The position numbers were made by a program, and so were the translations under genes. Shown here one piece after another: positions 3,135 to 37,747 of a stretch of DNA of 37,747 nucleotides (the first letter of the stretch is position 1; the number at the start of each line of letters is the position of its first letter). The notes under the pieces were generated by a model. The model was not told the origin of the DNA, ran no database searches, and saw nothing but the letters and a program-made list of their open reading frames with translations. Source of the DNA: Acidobacteriota bacterium (lineage in GTDB: Bacteria > Acidobacteriota > Polarisedimenticolia > Gp22-AA2); contig QHXY01000135.1 of the NCBI GenBank assembly GCA_003223145.1, positions 4,288 through 42,034 of the forward strand, in the 5' to 3' direction.

Positions 3135-4159
3135 GCGACCGCGCCGGTTCTCCCGGTTTCGCGCGCCGCCTCCCCAAGGCGGAGATCCACCTGCACCTCG
3201 AGGGGTCGATCGAGCTCGCGACCCTGGCGCGGATCGCGGGTGGCGAGGGCGCCGGGAGCCGTGCGCGTCTGGCGGCCCTCTACACGCATCGCGATTTTCC
3301 CGATTTCCTGCAGAATTTCCGGCGCGTGTGCGCGGAGATCCGGAGCCCCGGGGACTTCGCCTCGATCACGGAGGCGCTGTCGCGCCGCCTCGAGGAGGAG
3401 AATGTGCGCTACGCCGAGGTGTTCTGCTCGCCCACCATCTTCCGGCGCGCGCACGGGATGTCCGCCGGGGAGATCCTGGACGCCGCGTGCGGCGCGGCGC
3501 GCCGGCGGGAGAAGGCGGGCGGGCCGCGCCTGCGGTTTCTGCTCGACGGCGTCAGACAGTTCGGGATCCCGGCCATGGAGGAGATGGTGGAGACCGCGGC
3601 CGCCTGCCGGAGATACGACGTCATCGGCATCGGTATGGGTGGCGACGAGAGGTCCGCGCCGACGGCGGCGTTCGCCGGGCCGTACCGCGAGGCCCGCCGT
3701 CTCGGTCTGCACACGACCGTCCACGCCGGCGAGTTCGACGGACCGCGCTCTGTTTGGGAGGCGATCGAGATCCTCGAGGTGGAGCGCATCGGCCACGGCG
3801 TGCGCGCCGTCGAGGACTCCGAGCTCGTGCGCGTCCTCCGCCGCCTGGGCGTCGCGCTGGAATGCTGCCCGACGAGCAACGTGAAAACCGGGGTGGTCCC
3901 CGGCTGGGGGCGGCACCCCATCCCCGCGCTGCACCGCTCGGGCGTGGCCGTCACCGTGAACAGCGACGACCCGGCGATGTTCGGCACGACCCTGTCGAAC
4001 GAATGGGAGGTCCTCCTGACCCGGCTGGGCCTCGAACCCGAGGAGGTCATGGCAATCGGGCAGCGCACGGCGCGGGCCACTTTCCAGCCACGCGCCGAGC
4101 AGGAGGCGCTGGTCGACGACCTACGCCGGGCGGCCGCCCGTGAGGGAATCGTCGCGTGA
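3131..4159 (+). CDS. Adenosine deaminase family protein (adenosine/adenine/aminodeoxyfutalosine deaminase)
   Basis: A 342-residue metal-dependent amidohydrolase-fold deaminase acting on an adenine-containing substrate. It starts at a TTG that overlaps the previous stop (TTGA). Motifs in order: HLHLEGS (two zinc-binding His), GIGMGGDE, HAGE (zinc His and catalytic Glu), ERIGHG, CPTSN and NSDDPAMFGT (zinc Asp). The HLHLEGS form and the SDDPAMFGT ending are common to adenine deaminases and to aminodeoxyfutalosine deaminase (MqnX) as well as Add, so the exact substrate cannot be fixed from this sequence. No other menaquinone or purine-salvage gene lies nearby to decide. The family call is secure; the substrate is open. 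Confidence 0.9.
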   Translation: MSDRAGSPGFARRLPKAEIHLHLEGSIELATLARIAGGEGAGSRARLAALYTHRDFPDFLQNFRRVCAEIRSPGDFASITEALSRRLEEENVRYAEVFCSPTIFRRAHGMSAGEILDAACGAARRREKAGGPRLRFLLDGVRQFGIPAMEEMVETAAACRRYDVIGIGMGGDERSAPTAAFAGPYREARRLGLHTTVHAGEFDGPRSVWEAIEILEVERIGHGVRAVEDSELVRVLRRLGVALECCPTSNVKTGVVPGWGRHPIPALHRSGVAVTVNSDDPAMFGTTLSNEWEVLLTRLGLEPEEVMAIGQRTARATFQPRAEQEALVDDLRRAAAREGIVA

Positions 4160-6255
4160 CGGAGAGCGGCCAGGTCCGGGACCCGGGAGGACGGCGGGCC
4201 GCCCTCATCCTGCTCGCGGTCCTGTGCGCCTACGTAGTCCTGATGGACGCGTTGCTGCGGCCCTCCGGCGGTCTTCTGTTCCGACCCTGCAGCGGCCTGC
4301 TCGGCAGGTATCTGATCTCCGGAGAGGGCGGGCTGGAGACCCCGGTCCACGAGAGGGTCGATGCGCGCCTCGACTTTCCGGTGCCGCAGCGGCTCGACGC
4401 CGCCTACATCTTCCACTGGGACATGAAGCGGCTCGGTCTGCCGGTCTCGATGCCGCCGTACAGCATCCACTGGAGCGGTCTGCTCCATGCCCCCGAGCCG
4501 GGAGTGTACGGATTCACGCTCGACGCGCAGGGGGAGGTCCGTCTACGGATCGACGGCACGCAGCTCGAGATGCATCAGGACACGCTGACCGAGCGCCATC
4601 TTGCGGCGGGCTGGCACCCGATCGCCCTCGATTACGGGCTGGCGCAAGGGGACGCCCGGCTGGTCCTGTCCTGGAAGCCTCCGCGAGGGGCGCTCGCGCC
4701 GGTTCCCTCGCGCTGTCTGGCGCCCGACGGCGCGGCGATCGCCGCCTCGGCGACGCGGCGCGTCCTGGCGTGGGTCCTTCTCGCCGCGGGCGCCGCCACC
4801 GCCCTCGCCCTGTACGCGCTCGGGCGGAGGCAAGAGACCGCGCCGGCCCGGTATCTCCGGGCGCTGGGCACCCAGCGGGTCACCCTCGCCGTCGGCGCCA
4901 TCGTGATCCTGGCGGCGCTTCTGCGCTTTCACGATTTCGCCCTAGTGCCGTTCCACCACGAGACGGCGGACGAGTACCAGCACGCCTGGGAGGGCTGGTC
5001 CCTCCTGCACCAGGGGGTGCCGCTGGCCTGGAGCACGTTCCCCGATCGCTATCCGATCGACCAGACGCTCGATTTCCGCTGGTTCGGGGACCGGTACGTC
5101 GTGGTCCGGCCGTACTTCGATCACCCGCCGCTGTTCTCGATCCTCGTCGGACTCGTCACCTCTCTCGTGCAGGCGCTCACGCCCTCGTTCGGGTACGGAT
5201 TCGCCTCGTACCCCGCTCCCTGGGATTTCCTGTCCTGTACTCTGACGGTCATGCGTCTCGTGCCGATCGTGCTGAGCCTGATCGGCATCGTTCTTCTGTA
5301 CCGGCTGGCGCGCGCGTACGGCGCGTCCGAGCGCGCCGCCCTTCTGGGCTCCCTGGTGTACGCGACCCTGCCGGTGATCGTGCTGACGCACCGCCTGGTG
5401 AAGGCGGAGAGCCTCCTGGCGCTCCTCTTCATGGGCGCGATCCTCGCCACCCGCCGCCACGAGCTGTCGGGGAGCGCGGGAAGCGCCATCCTGGCGGGTC
5501 TTCTCTGCGGGCTGTCGATCTGGACGAAAGCCACGGGACTCGCAGTGGTGGCCGTGATCCTGGTGCTGCTTCTCGCGGCCCGGCGATACCGTGGAGCGCT
5601 CCTCGCCCTCGGCATCACGGGCGGATTCCTGCTGCTCTACCTGATCTATGCCTGGGCGCTGGATTTCGGCATCTTCCTGAAGGTGATCGAGGCGCAGTCG
5701 ACGACGAAGCTCATCGGTCTCGAGGCGCTGCAGGACCTGGTGAACGGAAAGATTGTCACAAAATACTTCGGGCGCGGCTGGTACCCCTGGCTCCTGCTGT
5801 GCGCCGCTCTCGCCGCCTTCCGTCGGGAGCGCGGCCTCCTGCTGCCGCTTGCGGTGTACGGCATGGTGATCGCCATGACCGCCGACTACCGCGTCATCTA
5901 CGGCTGGTACAGGATACCCCTCTACCCGTTCTTGTGCGTCGCGGCCGGCTGTGCCCTCGAAGAGATGATCGACGAGGCCAACCTGTTTCGCGTCGCCCCG
6001 TTCGCGGTCATGGCGGTATCGACGGGTCTTCTGTACGCCCTGCCGGCATCGCTGACCGGAACACGATGGGCTGTCTACCTGTTCGCCCTGGCGGCCCTCG
6101 TGCCGTTTCTGCCGAGGCTGATCTCCGAGCGTCCCTGGACCGTCCTGGCCGCCCGTCTGGCGACGGGTGTCCTGGTCGCGATCTTCCTGATCACCAGCCT
6201 GGTGACGATCGGCGGCCTGCTGGAGATTTACGCCGCAACGCGCGGCCTCCCGTAG
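4156..6255 (+). CDS. PA14-domain/GT39 (ArnT/PMT-like) membrane glycosyltransferase
   Basis: A 699-residue multi-pass protein starting at a GTG that overlaps the add stop (GTGA). An N-terminal transmembrane helix (about 15-35) is followed by a PA14-like beta domain (about 95-190: YSIHWSGLLHAPEPGVYGF, LRIDGTQLEM, WHPIALDYG, LVLSWKPP). A second helix (about 200-222) leads into the GT-C core, whose first extracytoplasmic loop carries an acidic pair (TADEYQHAWEGW) as in the dolichyl/undecaprenyl-phosphate sugar transferases of PF13231/ArnT type. Many further hydrophobic helices follow. By family knowledge such enzymes transfer sugar from a polyprenyl-phosphate donor to lipid or protein acceptors outside the cytoplasmic membrane; the acceptor here is unknown. 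A PA14 sugar-binding module in the same chain is unusual. Its 3' end overlaps the convergent mutase gene by 65 nt. Confidence 0.8.
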   Translation: MTESGQVRDPGGRRAALILLAVLCAYVVLMDALLRPSGGLLFRPCSGLLGRYLISGEGGLETPVHERVDARLDFPVPQRLDAAYIFHWDMKRLGLPVSMPPYSIHWSGLLHAPEPGVYGFTLDAQGEVRLRIDGTQLEMHQDTLTERHLAAGWHPIALDYGLAQGDARLVLSWKPPRGALAPVPSRCLAPDGAAIAASATRRVLAWVLLAAGAATALALYALGRRQETAPARYLRALGTQRVTLAVGAIVILAALLRFHDFALVPFHHETADEYQHAWEGWSLLHQGVPLAWSTFPDRYPIDQTLDFRWFGDRYVVVRPYFDHPPLFSILVGLVTSLVQALTPSFGYGFASYPAPWDFLSCTLTVMRLVPIVLSLIGIVLLYRLARAYGASERAALLGSLVYATLPVIVLTHRLVKAESLLALLFMGAILATRRHELSGSAGSAILAGLLCGLSIWTKATGLAVVAVILVLLLAARRYRGALLALGITGGFLLLYLIYAWALDFGIFLKVIEAQSTTKLIGLEALQDLVNGKIVTKYFGRGWYPWLLLCAALAAFRRERGLLLPLAVYGMVIAMTADYRVIYGWYRIPLYPFLCVAAGCALEEMIDEANLFRVAPFAVMAVSTGLLYALPASLTGTRWAVYLFALAALVPFLPRLISERPWTVLAARLATGVLVAIFLITSLVTIGGLLEIYAATRGLP

Positions 6256-12158: not shown

Positions 12159-13201
12159 CGAGGGTCCGCCAGGAGGGGGGGAGGCACCCCGGATCGGACC
12201 CCGGGCACGCCGCGGTGCTCGGAGCGGGGTCGTGGGGGACGGCGCTGGCGGTGCACCTGGCGCGCTCCGGCAGGCGCGCGGTCCTGTGGTCCCGGAGCGC
12301 GCGCGGCGCCGAGGCTCTCGGCGCTGCCCGCGAGAACGCCGTTTACCTTCCTGGCCATCACTTCCCGGAGACGCTGCAAGTGACCGGCGATCTCCACGAG
12401 GCGTTGCGCGGGGCCGGCATCGTGTTGTTTGTCGTGCCGGCGCAGTGGAGCCGTCCGATCTACCGCGCCGCGTCGGAGCATCTGGAAGCTGCCGTCGATC
12501 TGGTCATCGCCTCGAAGGGGATCGAGCAGGACAGCCTGCTGCGGCTCTCGGAGGTCATGGCGCAGGAGGCGGGGGACGAGGCGGGGGAGCGGGTCGCCGT
12601 CCTGTCGGGGCCCAGCTTCGCGGCCGAGGTGGCGCGTGGCGATCCGACGGCGGTCGTGATCGCATCGGAGGACGCCGGAGTGTCCGCCCGCGTGCAGACG
12701 AGCTTGTCGCACGGTAATCTGCGTGTCTACCGCAATGCCGATCGGGTCGGCGTGGAGATCGCGGGCTCGCTCAAGAACGTCGTCGCCCTGGCCACCGGGA
12801 TTGCCGAGGGTCTGGGGTTCGGTTCGAACACGCGCGCCGCCCTGATCACGCGCGGCATGGCCGAGATCGCCCGCCTCGGCACCTGCCTCGGCGGCCGGGC
12901 CGGGACGTTCGCCGGTCTGGCAGGCGCGGGTGACCTGATTCTCACCTGCACCGGGGAGCTGAGCCGCAACCGTTCCGTCGGGATCGAGATCGGTCGCGGC
13001 CGCCGCCTGGACGAGGTGCTGCAGGGCATGCGGATGGTCGCCGAAGGGGTCGCGACCACGCGCGCGGCGGTGGCGCTGGCGCGCCGTCGGAGCGTCGAGC
13101 TGCCGATCGCGCAGAAAGTGCATCAGGTCCTGTTCGAGGCGGTGCCGGCGCGCGAGGCCGTGGCCGACCTGCTGGCGCGGCCGCTCAGGGAGGAGACGTG
13201 A
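12155..13201 (+). CDS. gpsA: NAD(P)-dependent glycerol-3-phosphate dehydrogenase
   Basis: Reduces dihydroxyacetone phosphate to sn-glycerol 3-phosphate, the backbone for phospholipids; cytoplasmic. From the GTG overlapping the plsY stop it is 348 residues. Motifs: Rossmann loop AVLGAGSWGTALA, LSGPSFAAEVARGDPTA, catalytic Lys in AGSLKNVVALATG, NTRAALITRGMAEIARLG, and GAGDLILTCTGELSRNRSVG. The first about 20 residues before the Rossmann fold (MTRVRQEGGRHPGSDPGH) are extra and may mean that translation starts slightly later. The ORF-track 615-aa version reads through plsY in another frame and is not real upstream of 12155. Confidence 0.96.
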   Translation: MTRVRQEGGRHPGSDPGHAAVLGAGSWGTALAVHLARSGRRAVLWSRSARGAEALGAARENAVYLPGHHFPETLQVTGDLHEALRGAGIVLFVVPAQWSRPIYRAASEHLEAAVDLVIASKGIEQDSLLRLSEVMAQEAGDEAGERVAVLSGPSFAAEVARGDPTAVVIASEDAGVSARVQTSLSHGNLRVYRNADRVGVEIAGSLKNVVALATGIAEGLGFGSNTRAALITRGMAEIARLGTCLGGRAGTFAGLAGAGDLILTCTGELSRNRSVGIEIGRGRRLDEVLQGMRMVAEGVATTRAAVALARRRSVELPIAQKVHQVLFEAVPAREAVADLLARPLREET

Positions 13202-13992
13202 TCGATCTGCACAATCATCTCCTCCCCGGCATCGACGACGGGGCCAAGAAACTCGAGGAAACGCTGGAATTCCTGCGCATCGCGAGCCGGGACGGCGTGA
13301 AGGTGGTGGTCGCCACACCGCACATGAAACCCGGTGTGTACGACAACCGGCGCGAGACCATCCTCCAGCGGGTCGCTCTGGTGCGCGAGGCGCAAAGAGG
13401 CGACGAGTCCGAAGGCGTGACGCTCCTTCCCGGCGCCGAGGTCTACTACACCGCCGACCTCGCGGCGCGGGCGCGGGCGAATGAGCTGATGACCGTCGGT
13501 GATGGCGGTCGTTATCTGCTCCTCGAGCTGCCGTACCAGCAGGCCCCGCTGCGCGTGGACGACACGATCTTTCAGTTGAGGCTCCTCGGGATCACACCCC
13601 TCATGGCGCATCCCGAGCGGGTGGCTTACTACCTCGAGGACATCGAGCGGGTGGCCGCTTCCGTCCGGCTCGGGGCGCTGACGCAGGTGACCGGGTCCTC
13701 GCTCACCGGCAGGTTCGGAGACAAGGCGCGCGATTTTGCGCGCGCCATGCTGGAGCGCAATCTGATTCACGTTCTCGCCTCCGACGGCCACGACGTGCGC
13801 TACCGGCCGCCGGTCCTGTCGGATGCGGTGCGAGCGGTGGACTCTCTGATCGGGGAGACTGCGGCACGCCGTCTCGTGGAAGACACGCCGCAGGCGATCC
13901 TGGACGGCCGGGAGGTCGAGATCGAAGAGGCCCTCCCGCCCTTTCGCCGGCGCGGGCTGTTCTCACGAGTTCGATCTTTCTTCCATCGCTAA
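13198..13992 (+). CDS. PHP-family protein-tyrosine phosphatase (CpsB/CapC/YwqE type)
   Basis: A 264-residue PHP-domain phosphatase of the type that dephosphorylates bacterial tyrosine kinases controlling exopolysaccharide export. Metal-binding motifs are in order: DLHNHLLPGIDDGAKKLEE at the N-terminus, VVATPHMKPGVY, LLPGAEVYY, MAHPER and ASDGHDVRY. The C-terminus ends with a basic aromatic stretch (RRRGLFSRVRSFFHR). GTG start overlapping the gpsA stop. No Wzz/BY-kinase or polysaccharide export gene is present in the window, so the partner is unknown. It ends the second rightward run: a promoter-containing AT-rich gap follows. Confidence 0.9.
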   Translation: MIDLHNHLLPGIDDGAKKLEETLEFLRIASRDGVKVVVATPHMKPGVYDNRRETILQRVALVREAQRGDESEGVTLLPGAEVYYTADLAARARANELMTVGDGGRYLLLELPYQQAPLRVDDTIFQLRLLGITPLMAHPERVAYYLEDIERVAASVRLGALTQVTGSSLTGRFGDKARDFARAMLERNLIHVLASDGHDVRYRPPVLSDAVRAVDSLIGETAARRLVEDTPQAILDGREVEIEEALPPFRRRGLFSRVRSFFHR

Positions 13993-33414: not shown

Positions 33415-36162
33415 TCAGTCGTTGTTGATGTAGATGGTTTCAGCCGGCCGGCCGTCCACGCCGAAGTGCGTCGGGGCCTCCGTTCCGGGGCCGGGAGACG
33501 GGCTCGGCCGCGGATCGACCGCCGGGCCTCCCCCGGGCGTGGCGAGAGTGTCGACAGCCCCGTGGCGCTCGCTACGGCTGATGTCCAGAGGCACCTGAAG
33601 GTCCTTCCCGTCGAAGTGCACGAGGATCTCTTTGCCACCCGACTGCATCTCGACCTCGCCCTGCCCCTCGCTCACCAGGTGGACCAGGGCGTCGCCGTCG
33701 AGGCTCAGCTCCAGGTCGTTCGTCACCTCGAAGCTCTGCAGATAGTAGGGGAGCGACTGGCGGAAATGCTCGACGGCCGAGCAGGCCTTGGCAGGCTCCG
33801 TCCCCGCCAGGAACGCCTCCAGGAAGGTCACGGGACAGTTCGACTCGACGGTCGCCCGCAGGCCCGTATTCCGGTCGATCGGCACGTAGACGATGTTGGC
33901 GGGCTTGGGGAACTCCTCCGGCGGCTTGCCTTTCAGCCCCTCCTTCATGAACTGGATCCAGATCGGCAGGGCGGCGCGCGCCCCCGTCTCCCCTTCGCCG
34001 AGCGGCTTCTTCTGGTCGAAGCCGACCCAGACGCCGGCCACCAGGGACGGGCTGAAACCGACGAACCAGGCGTCGGCGTGGCTGTCGGTCGTCCCGGTCT
34101 TGCCGGCGACCGGCCGGTTCAGCTCGCGCGCGGCGGCGGCGCCGGTGCCGCTCTCCGTGACGCCCTCCAGGAGGTAGGTCATCAGGTAGGCGATGTCGGC
34201 GCGCAGCACCTCGATCACCTGGGGCTTCGACTCCTCGCGCATCTTGCCGTCGCGGTCGGCGACGTAACGGATGAAGTGCGGCTCGACGCGCACCCCCTGG
34301 TTGGGGAAGATCGAGTAGGCCGTGGTCAGATCGATGAGCGAGACCTCCTCCGTTCCGAGCGCCATCGACGGGTACGGCTCGAGCTTGCTGCTGATCCCCA
34401 TCTTGCGCGCGGTCTCGATGGTGCGCGAGTAACCGATCTGGTTCAGCAGCTTGACCGCCACGATGTTGCGCGACTCCTCTATCGCCTCGCGCAGGGTCGT
34501 GACGCCGTAGTACTTGCGGTAGTAATTGTCGGGCTGGTACTCGTCGCCGGTCTTCCTGTCGACGAACACCGTCGGCTTGTCGAAGATCGTGTCGGCCAGA
34601 GTGTGACCGGAGTCCAGGGCCGTCGTGTAGACGAACGGCTTGAAGGCCGAGCCGGCCTGGCGGTACGACTGCATGGAGCGATCGAACTCGCTGCGGTTGA
34701 AATCGTAGCCGCCGACCAGCGCCTTGATCTCCCCGCTCGCCGGGTCGATCGCCATCAGGGCCCCCTCGACCAGCGGCTCCTGGTCGAGCTTGACCCGCAG
34801 CTCCCTCTTCCCCTCGTCGATCCCCAGGACCAGGAAGGGGGAGACATCCCCGACCTTCAGCACCTGGTTCGGGATCGTCTTGCCGGTCCAGTCGATCCCC
34901 TCGGGACCGAAGTGGGCCGTGAAATCGCCGAGCTTGACCGTGGCGGTGCGCCGGTTCACCTCGGTCACCACGCCCGTGCGCAGCTTGCCGACGGACGGCG
35001 CCTTGCTCCAGGCGGCGGAGGTGAAGGTCGCCAGATCGCCACCGTCCTTGAGGACGTTCTGCTTGATCGGCCGCAGACCCTGGCGCTTGTCCAGAACGCG
35101 CAGCCCCTCGAACACCGCCTGGTTGGCCGCCTTCTGCATCGCCGGATCGAGCGTGGTGTGGACCTCCATCCCCTCCTCGTAGAGGGCCACCTCGCCGTAC
35201 TTGGAATCGAGGTACCGCCGGACCTCCTCGACGAAGTACGGCGCGATGTTGTCCTCCTCCGGCAGCTTGGCCACCTCCACGGGTGTCGCCATCCCCTGGT
35301 CGGCGACGTCGCGGCTGATCTTGCCCTCCTCCGCCATGCGGTTCAGGACATGGTCGCGGCGCGACCGGGCCTTCTCGGGCGAACGGCACGGCGAGTAGGC
35401 CTCCGGCCGCTGCACCAGCCCGGCCAGGAGCGCCGCCTCGGGGCGCGTCATCTTGCTGGCCGTCTTGCCGAAGTAATACTCGGAGGCCGCCTCGATGCCG
35501 TAGCGGCCGTGCCCCATGTACACCTGGTTGCAGTAGAAGCCGAGGATTTCCGGCTTGGTGAACGCCTTCTCGATCTGCACCGCCAGCACCATCTCCTGCA
35601 GCTTGCGGCGCATGGTCTTCTCGGGTTTCAGGAACAGCGAGCGCGCCAGCTGCTGGGTGATGGTGCTGCCGCCCTGCGCCTTCCTGAGATGGGTGATGTC
35701 CGTTATGATGGCCCGCGCGATCCCCCAGGGGTCGATGCCGACATGCTCGTAGTAGTGCGAATCCTCGGTGGCGACCAGGGCGTCAAGGAACTCCTTCGGG
35801 ATCTGGTCGAGCCCGACCACGATCCGTTTCTCCGCACCGAACTGGTAGAGCACTTGGCCGTCGGCGCTATAGATCGTCGTGACGACCGGCGGCTTCCAGT
35901 CCTGCAGATGGGTCACTTCGGGTATGTCGAAAGTCAGGAAATACCCGAGCACCGAGCCGGAACCGCCTGCCAGGAGCAGACCCGACAGAATGATGATGAT
36001 CAGGTTCTTGGGCTTGCGCCAGAACCGGACCCGTGGGGGTGGAGCGCTCGGGGGACCCCCTGGCGGAGGGGTGCCAGACGGGGGACTCCCCGGTGGGGGA
36101 GTACCCGCTTTGCCTGGTCCGCTCAAGTGGGTGAATGAGATGGTTTTATCGTCGATTCCCAA
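33415..36162 (-). CDS. Penicillin-binding protein 1A (class A bifunctional)
   Basis: Peptidoglycan glycosyltransferase plus DD-transpeptidase anchored in the cytoplasmic membrane, 915 residues, TTG start with GAGG upstream. In order: a cytoplasmic Pro/Gly-rich repeat tail (GTPPPGSPPSG, about 20-43), one membrane helix (about 53-75), GT51 domain with catalytic Glu133 (ATEDSHYYEHVG), GGSTITQQLARSLFL and Glu198 (VQIEKAFTK), an inserted OB-like region (about 395-465), then the transpeptidase with SxxK SAFK (505-508), the SRN motif (ESRNIVA, about 565) and KTGT (PVAGKTGTTDSHADAW). After the catalytic domain an about 150-residue extension continues through an acidic and beta-rich stretch (LSLDGDALVHLVSEGQGEVEM) to a Pro-rich tail. 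Head-to-head with the GT2 gene. Confidence 0.95.
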   Translation of the reverse strand: MGIDDKTISFTHLSGPGKAGTPPPGSPPSGTPPPGGPPSAPPPRVRFWRKPKNLIIIILSGLLLAGGSGSVLGYFLTFDIPEVTHLQDWKPPVVTTIYSADGQVLYQFGAEKRIVVGLDQIPKEFLDALVATEDSHYYEHVGIDPWGIARAIITDITHLRKAQGGSTITQQLARSLFLKPEKTMRRKLQEMVLAVQIEKAFTKPEILGFYCNQVYMGHGRYGIEAASEYYFGKTASKMTRPEAALLAGLVQRPEAYSPCRSPEKARSRRDHVLNRMAEEGKISRDVADQGMATPVEVAKLPEEDNIAPYFVEEVRRYLDSKYGEVALYEEGMEVHTTLDPAMQKAANQAVFEGLRVLDKRQGLRPIKQNVLKDGGDLATFTSAAWSKAPSVGKLRTGVVTEVNRRTATVKLGDFTAHFGPEGIDWTGKTIPNQVLKVGDVSPFLVLGIDEGKRELRVKLDQEPLVEGALMAIDPASGEIKALVGGYDFNRSEFDRSMQSYRQAGSAFKPFVYTTALDSGHTLADTIFDKPTVFVDRKTGDEYQPDNYYRKYYGVTTLREAIEESRNIVAVKLLNQIGYSRTIETARKMGISSKLEPYPSMALGTEEVSLIDLTTAYSIFPNQGVRVEPHFIRYVADRDGKMREESKPQVIEVLRADIAYLMTYLLEGVTESGTGAAAARELNRPVAGKTGTTDSHADAWFVGFSPSLVAGVWVGFDQKKPLGEGETGARAALPIWIQFMKEGLKGKPPEEFPKPANIVYVPIDRNTGLRATVESNCPVTFLEAFLAGTEPAKACSAVEHFRQSLPYYLQSFEVTNDLELSLDGDALVHLVSEGQGEVEMQSGGKEILVHFDGKDLQVPLDISRSERHGAVDTLATPGGGPAVDPRPSPSPGPGTEAPTHFGVDGRPAETIYINND

Positions 36163-36193: not shown

Positions 36194-36937
36194 GTGATTA
36201 TACACGCAAAGGTTCCGGTCTTCCCCCTGTCCATCATCATGCCCACGCTTGATGAAGAATATGTCCTTCCCGAGGCGCTTGCCAGCCTCGAGCGGCAAAA
36301 TTTCGACCTCTCCCTCGAAGTGATCCTGTCGGACGGGGGAAGCGGCGACGGGACAGTGGCGACTTTCGAGCGGTTGACCCGCTCCTGGCCGGCCCGGAGC
36401 CTGGCCGCCCGGGTCGTCGTCTGCCCGCGTCCCGGGCGGGCAGCCCAGATGAATGCGGGGGCGCGTGTGGCCCGGGGAGACATCCTTCTCTTCCTGCATG
36501 CCGACACCTCCCTGCCGCCAGATGGGGCGCACGCGGTCATGGGGGCGCTGATCGATCAGGAGGTCGTCGGGGGCGGATTCCGGCACCGGTTCAGGGAATC
36601 GGGAACCCTGCTGCGCGCCATTTCTGGATACGCAACCGCTCGATCGGTCGTGCGCCGGATCCACTACGGCGACCAGGCCATGTTCGTCCGGCGCTCGGTA
36701 TTCGACGACCTCGGCGGTTTCCCCGACATCCCGCTGTTCGAGGACCTGCGACTTTCGAGGGCCCTGCGCGCGCGTGGCAGGGTGGTGACCCTGTCGCTCC
36801 CGGCGATCACGTCCGCGCGCCGGCTGCGGCAGGGGGGTGTCGTGCGCACGGCGGGGCGCTTCGCCTGGCTCAAGCTGCGCGATGCGCTCGGAGCCGACCC
36901 GGCGAGGCTGAAGGCGGACTACCCGGATGTCAGATAA
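36194..36937 (+). CDS. TIGR04283-type family 2 glycosyltransferase
   Basis: A 247-residue GT-A fold glycosyltransferase without membrane helices. Features: SIIMPTLDEEYVLPEAL at the N-terminus, the nucleotide-binding SDGGSGDGT, GRAAQMNAGA, the HADT metal/donor motif (about 102-105), GGGFRHRF, and YGDQAMFVRR followed by FPDIPLFEDLRLSRAL. These together are the pattern of TIGR04283 (named from arsenosugar-linked examples, but broader). No arsenic gene is in the window, so I do not transfer that role. GTG start, only 31 nt from the divergent PBP1A start. Its end overlaps the next gene by 11 nt, which suggests the two act together. Confidence 0.85.
   Translation: MIIHAKVPVFPLSIIMPTLDEEYVLPEALASLERQNFDLSLEVILSDGGSGDGTVATFERLTRSWPARSLAARVVVCPRPGRAAQMNAGARVARGDILLFLHADTSLPPDGAHAVMGALIDQEVVGGGFRHRFRESGTLLRAISGYATARSVVRRIHYGDQAMFVRRSVFDDLGGFPDIPLFEDLRLSRALRARGRVVTLSLPAITSARRLRQGGVVRTAGRFAWLKLRDALGADPARLKADYPDVR
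36197..36202 (-). promoter_or_regulatory. Perfect -10 hexamer (TATAAT) for the PBP1A gene
   Basis: Reading leftward the sequence is GCGTG-TATAAT-CACTT; transcription would start near 36190, leaving a leader of about 28 nt before the TTG at 36162. No good -35 is present at 16-18 nt. The hexamer falls inside the first three codons of the divergent glycosyltransferase gene. TATAAT is rare by chance in DNA this GC-rich. Confidence 0.5.
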
Positions 36938-37747
36938 GGCGCGCCCCGGAGACGGAACGAAAAAACAGCAAGGACGGGCGCCCCGAGTCCCCTCGCCGTG
37001 GGGTCAGTCACATCCGCGCAGCATCCGTCTTGCGCCGGACTCCCAGATCGTGCCCGCCGGAACGCTACGCGTGCTCCTCAAGAAGGGCGCGCGGCTTGAA
37101 GTCGTCTACACCGGCTTCGTTCTCGAGCCGTGGATCGCCGACGGCGATCGTGTCACGCTCGATGGAAACCGCCGTCCGCGCGAAGGGGACTTGGCTCTGT
37201 GCGCTGTAGACGGCTGGGGGGAAATCCGCAGAATTCTGGGCCGTGCCGTCTCTGGCGGGTATATCACGGGTCTCGACCCCTGTCCCGGCATCCGTGAGGT
37301 GATCGCTTCGGACGGGGTTCTGGCGGTCGTCGCCGGCAGGCGGGGCGCGGGTGGGGCGCTCGGCCGGGCCGTGGCCGCGGCCTTCCCGTTCTGGTCGCGC
37401 TGGGCGGCGCTGTGCTACTGGTTTCGGAAGGTGCGCGAGGCCCCGCGGTTCGGTGGGGATGCGATGGCCTCGGTTCAGAGGAAATACAAAGGCCAAGTCG
37501 AGAGTTACACGGACATGCTGTCGTTCCCTCTGGGAGACGACGATTTATACGCGCTTCTCGTGAGCACCTTCCCGAAGGGTGGCTCGGTCCTGATCGCGGG
37601 AAGCGGGGCGGGAGGGGAGGCGATTCACCTGGCCCGGGACGGCTACCGGGTCACGGGGTTCGATTTCCTGCAGGACATGGTCCGGGCCGCAGAACGGAAC
37701 GCGCGGGCCGCGGCATGCTCGGTCGAGTTCATGGTGGCCGACATGGG
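36927..37747 (+). CDS. S24/S26-peptidase-like domain fused to SAM methyltransferase, 3'-truncated by window edge
   Basis: Open from ATG 36927 to the window end with no stop, so it is missing from the ORF track. 273 residues are visible. After a basic, disordered-looking start, residues about 45-140 match the shape of S24/S26 signal-peptidase-like domains (VLLKKGARLEVVYTGFVLEP, ADGDRVTLD, PREGDLALCAVDG, then IRRILGR), but the nucleophile position of the usual G-x-S-M-x-P motif is Val (GFVLEP) and the partner basic position is Arg, so peptidase activity is unlikely. A linker with SVQRKYKGQVESYTDMLSF leads to a class I methyltransferase: motif I VLIAGSGAGGEAIHLARDGY (221-240), GFDFLQDMV, then FMVADM. 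Overlaps the glycosyltransferase by 11 nt. The domain identities come from pattern recognition, not a search. Confidence 0.75.
   Translation, partial: MSDKARPGDGTKKQQGRAPRVPSPWGQSHPRSIRLAPDSQIVPAGTLRVLLKKGARLEVVYTGFVLEPWIADGDRVTLDGNRRPREGDLALCAVDGWGEIRRILGRAVSGGYITGLDPCPGIREVIASDGVLAVVAGRRGAGGALGRAVAAAFPFWSRWAALCYWFRKVREAPRFGGDAMASVQRKYKGQVESYTDMLSFPLGDDDLYALLVSTFPKGGSVLIAGSGAGGEAIHLARDGYRVTGFDFLQDMVRAAERNARAAACSVEFMVADM

Follow-up and report, generated by a model that had tools for sequence, protein, structure and literature searches.

A signal peptidase-like domain lacking its catalytic residues is fused to a methyltransferase in Acidobacteriota and may serve as a docking module in peptide modification

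We have identified, at the end of a 37,747-nucleotide stretch of Acidobacteriota DNA (here called the window), a gene that joins a degenerate S26B-like domain to a class I SAM methyltransferase. Because every member of the family lacks both catalytic residues of this domain and has it joined to the methyltransferase, and because stand-alone relatives of the domain are often located in peptide-modification clusters, a non-cutting role in substrate binding or docking is the likeliest one. Our best explanation, which we would accept about as readily as reject, is that the fusion protein is a tailoring methyltransferase of a RiPP pathway, in which the dead LppS-like domain would dock on the PqqD-bound precursor peptide and deliver the methyltransferase to it.

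RESULTS

Architecture and distribution of the fusion gene

The features at the end of the window are as follows.

33415..36162, minus strand: penicillin-binding protein 1A (PBP1A), conserved beside the locus in families f1, f6, and f11
36194..36937, plus strand: GT2 glycosyltransferase of the TIGR04283 type (NCBIfam model), paired with the fusion gene in one bacterial family only
36927..37747, plus strand: fusion gene, degenerate S26B (SEC11/SipW/LppS-like) domain plus class I SAM methyltransferase, truncated at its 3' end where the contig stops
37044..37337, plus strand: S26B-like domain, residues about 40 to 137 (hhalign, controls, catalytic columns, model)
37356..37541, plus strand: helical linker with the signature S-V-x-x-K-Y-x-x-Q-x-x-x-Y (alignments A1 and A4, structure model)
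37542..37747, plus strand: class I methyltransferase, first third only (SAM motif, Pfam, alignments)

The open frame of the fusion gene occupies positions 36927 to 37745 (273 codons) and meets no stop before the contig end; window and contig both stop inside the methyltransferase part. Full-length relatives of the protein have about 360 to 410 amino acids, compared with the 273 residues in the window, and the C-terminal part was sought elsewhere in the same assembly and not found. Gene calls were made with a simple codon-position script and were supported by tblastn with reference proteins.

Fourteen members of the fusion family were found among the genomes compared, which were mostly MAGs. 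Thirteen come from a single Acidobacteriota class, where the fusion is present in 13 of 41 genomes, the window's own (G000, an incomplete assembly at 88%) included; the last is in G132, a genome from another family than these 13. The initial annotation had described one open frame running from a peptidase-like region into a methyltransferase and had allowed that homologues might prove to be separate, adjacent genes. All 14 members are fused and no split pair was found among them, which rules out a product of frameshift, chance, or assembly. Public records of the fusion loci include Acidobacteria MAGs, Candidatus Polarisedimenticola svalbardensis, and Acidobacteria bacterium Mor1 (CP011806). 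A 51-residue open reading frame in another genome, G039 (L096:1501-1656), aligns with the family over its first 41 positions only and is probably a decayed remnant of it.

The N-terminal domain resembles S26B signal peptidases without their catalytic residues

On profile comparison, the N-terminal domain is of the SEC11/SipW type (S26B, with a Ser-His pair) and not of the S24 type. When the alignment of the fusion N termini was compared by hhalign with 20 stand-alone S26B-like proteins, all small proteins or domains from the same phylum, the match reached 98.8% (E = 1e-16), and the reversed and column-shuffled controls gave at most 1.2%. The stand-alone relatives in turn matched SEC11C (7p2q; E = 1e-13), and 19 of the 20 matched TIGR02228, the archaeal/SipW-type signal peptidase I model, with E values down to 4e-18. 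Thus, of the S24/S26-like region first proposed, the S26 part stands and the S24 part does not: LexA gave 84% (E = 7.5e-6) over part of the domain only, and the S26B assignment was preferred. The signal from single sequences is weak (best E = 0.013, with 2 of 12 members matching), and a Pfam search of the window protein gave no match in this domain.

The predicted structure of the window piece has a modest pLDDT of 65, and its S26B-like region is mostly beta strands; the AlphaFold model of a full-length relative has a fair pLDDT of 79, and its N-terminal domain region is likewise mostly beta. With both models, Foldseek returned only methyltransferases among the matches listed, a result that says nothing for or against a peptidase-like fold.

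The replacement of the catalytic Ser by Val and the presence of Arg at the partner position, both read initially from the window sequence, were borne out as V65 (codon 37119-37121) and R101 (37227-37229), with the correction that the S26B subfamily uses His, and not Lys, as the partner residue. D117 (37275-37277) preserves the Asp that is the third residue of the active site. In the joint alignment, Ser and His are both replaced in all 14 fusions and Asp is kept in all 14, whereas Ser, His, and Asp are all present in each of the 20 stand-alone relatives. The Ser position is occupied by R, V, A, or C in the fusions and the His position by L, F, R, or V. Conservation across the domain is poor except for a few columns; those that are invariant are L51, G63, G87, R102, and D117, with no Ser or Cys among them. 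Between families, at approximately 30% identity, the fold and positions G63, P68, G73, G87, R102, and D117 are kept. Judged from the motif, LppS itself lying outside the alignment, the D117 column appears equivalent to LppS D93.

These patterns bear on the idea that the domain is still catalytic with rearranged residues, so that leader peptidase and methyltransferase would be combined in one protein. The retention of the Asp in every fusion speaks for it, as does the G132 array described below, in which no Ser/His S26 gene was seen and only the dead fusion is present; however, the variable residues at the nucleophile and base positions and the lack of an invariant Ser or Cys argue against it, and we regard it as very improbable.

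A precedent for a dead signal peptidase fold acting as a binder is SipA of Streptococcus pyogenes, which has lost both catalytic residues and is proposed to bind without cutting (PMC4049620). The fusion domain resembles SipA in having this fold without either residue and in its proposed role as a partner binder; unlike the fusion, SipA is a stand-alone surface protein of pilus assembly with Ser-Lys kin and carries no fused enzyme (PMC4049620).

The methyltransferase

The identity of the C-terminal part as a class I SAM methyltransferase, already claimed from the window sequence, is confirmed. The Methyltransf_25 model matches with an E value of 7e-8 on the partial piece in the window and up to 2e-19 in relatives; the SAM motif G225-x-G-x-G229 has G225, G227, and G229 invariant in alignment A1, together with E231 and the beta-2 acidic residue D246; and Foldseek matched the model of the full-length relative with an E value of 5e-11. 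The linker residues S182, K186, Y187, Q190, and Y194 are also invariant (alignments A1 and A4). CcbJ ranked first in Foldseek, and the peptide N-methyltransferase CypM was among the best matches; these model-based matches hint at amine methylation without identifying the substrate.

The small-molecule N-methyltransferases CcbJ and TylM1 among these neighbors, and the poor conservation of the N-terminal domain outside a few columns, would suit an alternative in which the peptidase-like domain survives as a structural relic, serving only to stabilize or dimerize the methyltransferase, with the enzyme acting on a small molecule unrelated to any peptide. The fold and positions retained between distant families are evidence against a relic, however, and the neighborhood is peptide related where it is informative; this alternative is improbable in our judgment.

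The glycosyltransferase and other neighbors in the window

The GT2 protein scores 213.2 bits against TIGR04283 (curated cut-off, 182), and its stop and the start of the fusion gene overlap by exactly 11 nt (36927-36937), as first described. The same overlap occurs in four genomes, all of one family (G000, G001, G003, and G006), and another gene sits between the two in G002. Outside family f1, no GT2 gene of this type was found near the fusion in the stretches examined. The GT2 gene of G003 (L032:3169-3504) has an in-frame loss of approximately 100 residues that includes the DxD region, which may be real decay or an assembly error; the 11-nt overlap is kept there and the fusion is intact. The suggestion that GT2 is a general partner acting on the same molecule as the methyltransferase is consequently rejected: the pairing is confined to one family, damaged in G003, and separated in G002. 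An arsenosugar pathway, considered from the name of TIGR04283, was also rejected, nothing seen nearby supporting it and the literature found dealing with food and algal chemistry.

PBP1A is probably a positional marker only. Elsewhere, the window carries a CpsB/CapC-type capsule protein (13198-13989) and, at 4156-6252, a PMT-type glycosyltransferase that includes a PA14 domain.

Kinase genes and the PqqD-radical SAM block

The neighbors kept across families are HprK-like kinases. Such a gene lies within about 2.5 kb of the fusion in 10 of the 12 assessable genomes (G001, G002, G003, G006, G021, G022, G032, G034, G036, and G132), the exceptions being G009 and G011; G000 and G026 end at contig ends and are unassessable, and G006 is counted on the presumption that two contig ends, matched by homology, join. 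The kinase sequences inspected keep the His (read by eye), the Walker A Lys, and the Asp-Asp pair. They score far below the NCBIfam cut-off and are thus termed HprK-like, not members of a named family.

Several lineages also keep PhyH, uvrB/uvrC, PBP1A, and a block of PqqD, radical SAM, precursor, and C25 genes. The order in f1, best seen in G001, is PBP1A, GT2, fusion, PhyH, HprK, uvrB, uvrC, hydrolase, HprK, PqqD, radical SAM, and C25; in Mor1, it is PBP1A, uvrB, fusion, HprK, PhyH, HprK, uvrC, hydrolase, PqqD, radical SAM, precursor, and C25. The fusion lies approximately 7 to 12 kb from the RiPP block in G001, G002, Mor1, and G034. Only in G132 does it stand directly inside the block, in an operon-like array of fusion, HprK, PqqD, radical SAM/SPASM, two precursors, and a C25 peptidase. 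In G032 and G036, kinase genes flank the fusion on both sides and the PqqD-radical SAM block is on a different contig; in the f2 genomes G009 and G011, neither kinase nor RiPP genes were found near it. A search of the window's own assembly (88%) for a precursor, a radical SAM partner, and an HprK partner found none.

This distribution bears on an alternative in which the fusion would belong to a separate pathway together with the neighboring HprK-like kinase and a PhyH-type dioxygenase, the RiPP block simply lying nearby; given GT2 and PBP1A, which adjoin the fusion in f1, the substrate could be, for example, a cell envelope glycan or lipid. HprK and PhyH are the closest neighbors of the fusion in several genomes, and no RiPP genes are near it in G032, G036, or the f2 genomes. 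Against this stand the position of the fusion in the G132 array, the fact that the closest relatives of its domain include RiPP-associated Ser/His proteins of the LppS kind (PMC13381572), and the absence of GT2 near the fusion outside f1, with damage to it in G003. We consider a separate pathway rather unlikely.

G018, a genome without the fusion, has an intact stand-alone Ser/His S26 protein just upstream of HprK-PqqD-radical SAM. It also carries (L094:283-1953, minus strand) an NTP_transf_5 nucleotidyltransferase with an intact S26B domain joined to it, adjoining a gingipain-like C25 protein; this is a second fusion of an S26B domain to a tailoring enzyme. The occupation of the slot beside HprK-PqqD-radical SAM by an intact S26 protein, and the presence of this second fusion, favor the view that the dead domain has kept binding without cutting.

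Two further arrangements were observed. A second, different cluster in G003 (L233:4220-7979) contains NTP_transf_5, an intact S26B protein, a 57-residue precursor-like open reading frame (L062:1874-2047), HprK, PqqD, and radical SAM genes. In f1 (L225:3-14356), an ECF-type sigma factor and large proteins that look secreted, one of which carries thrombospondin type 3 repeats, lie between C25 and the precursor gene downstream of it; the order in f2 is similar.

The precursor peptide family

The precursors are peptides of 37 to 39 residues with the consensus MKKxYEKPAIIHTEKxEARAVxCAKADDxxCxAGPIQS, and no NCBIfam model matches them. In many genomes the gene lies between the radical SAM and C25 genes, and in f1 and f2 it is found farther downstream; PqqD is encoded in the same block in several relatives. 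Precursors were found in 31 of the 41 genomes of the window's class (E = 0.01) and in 45 of 392 genomes sampled across the phylum (1e-5). Because many genomes that encode a precursor carry no fusion, which is present in 13 of the 41, the fusion would provide at most an accessory step.

The Y and P of the motif YxxPx[I/V] are invariant in the family alignment (A8), and every one of the 18 aligned members ends in Ser or Thr. Motifs of the YxxPx[I/V] kind in LPP and lasso leaders are bound by discrete RREs (PMC13381572), and in the paeninodin pathway, HprK-like kinases act on the C-terminal Ser (PMC9266682).

DISCUSSION

The simplest account of these data is that the domain lost its cutting activity but retained binding, and that it now positions the methyltransferase on the peptide. 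In such a pathway, PqqD, as the RRE, would bind the leader of the precursor at its YxxPxI motif. The dead LppS-like domain would recognize either the leader with the RRE bound to it or the part of the leader at which LppS would cleave, and the attached methyltransferase, thereby brought to the precursor, would methylate it. The HprK-like kinases would phosphorylate the C-terminal Ser, and the radical SAM enzyme would probably modify the core, perhaps at cysteines.

We infer this docking and methylation role from the residue loss and the gene linkage, and what stands against it is that the link to RiPP genes is one of gene neighborhood, is direct in one genome only, and is broken in the f2 genomes; the fusion may have its true partners in the kinases alone. 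The initial annotation had proposed a binding module presenting a substrate to the methyltransferase. The loss of both residues, the constant fusion, and the relatives in peptide clusters support that proposal, while its companion idea, GT2 modifying the same molecule, has fallen away; substrate binding is plausible, and the likely substrate can now be named as the precursor peptide. A wider formulation, to which we give somewhat less credence than to the tailoring role itself, is that a leader peptidase became a docking adaptor, whose dead form reads the RRE-bound leader and delivers a modification in an undescribed radical SAM/HprK RiPP family of Acidobacteriota.

RiPP pathways are known to recruit enzymes via RRE domains. 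If the docking account is true, a disarmed cutting enzyme whose new task is to carry another enzyme to the same peptide would represent a second recruiting principle, one that is directly testable since LppS, RRE, and precursor assays already exist. What is new here is the linkage to HprK-like kinases and a precursor family near the dead peptidase-methyltransferase fusion; the precursor family and its neighbors define a specific set of genes behind a peptide product in a bacterial class known mostly from metagenomes. A literature search found no peptidase-methyltransferase fusion, and the literature on PqqD with HprK, S24, C25, or Acidobacteria yielded no description of such a cluster.

Among known systems, the SynChlorMet (Scm) and GeoRSP cassettes (TIGR04248, TIGR04249, TIGR04302, and TIGR04303) are reminiscent of this block: of the NCBIfam models, ScmD and ScmC give the best scores for the PqqD and HprK-like proteins, and the radical SAM protein also matches these cassettes, but all of these scores are far below the curated cut-offs. 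We know of no methyltransferase fusion in either cassette.

Paeninodin-type lasso peptide tailoring shares with the present clusters HprK-like kinases with His-Lys-Asp-Asp residues, a motif typical of lasso-tailoring kinases, and a precursor ending in Ser or Thr; it also uses a nucleotidyltransferase (PMC9266682). The present clusters differ in having a radical SAM enzyme, and no macrolactam synthetase or B2 protease was noticed in the stretches examined.

A close parallel is with the LPP (linear polyphosphorylated peptide) clusters of Bacilli (2026), described mainly from Bacillota, whose leader peptidase LppS requires S29, H68, and D93 and depends on the RRE for cleavage of the leader (PMC13381572). 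The domain of the window protein is a member of this fold group but is unable to carry out such chemistry. The initial claim that no described system has this arrangement holds for the fusion itself within the papers searched and must be qualified for the domain, an active version of which these clusters use. Other Acidobacteriota also carry LPP-like clusters (L108:2695-2865, L110:333-503, L114:301-525, L115:352-570, L116:2839-3027, and L119:372-575), with an intact Ser/His S26B protein, mostly with an HprK-like kinase gene, and with precursors of 55 to 75 residues that have YxxP and a C-terminal Ser. The fusion loci share with LPP clusters the SipW-type Ser-His-Asp domain family, a discrete RRE, an HprK-like kinase with the His-Lys-Asp-Asp residues, an NTP transferase in the wider group, and the precursor motif YxxPx[V/I] (PMC13381572); the broader LPP-type motif [Y/W]xxPx[L/V/I] beside a discrete RRE (PqqD) was found in relatives and not in the window's assembly. 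The active SpI-like leader peptidase of LPP clusters is missing from the G132 array, and an intact one is present in G018. In contrast to the LPP clusters (PMC13381572), a methyltransferase is fused to the peptidase domain described here, which is dead and occurs in the phylum Acidobacteriota, in the company of a C25 peptidase and a radical SAM/SPASM enzyme.
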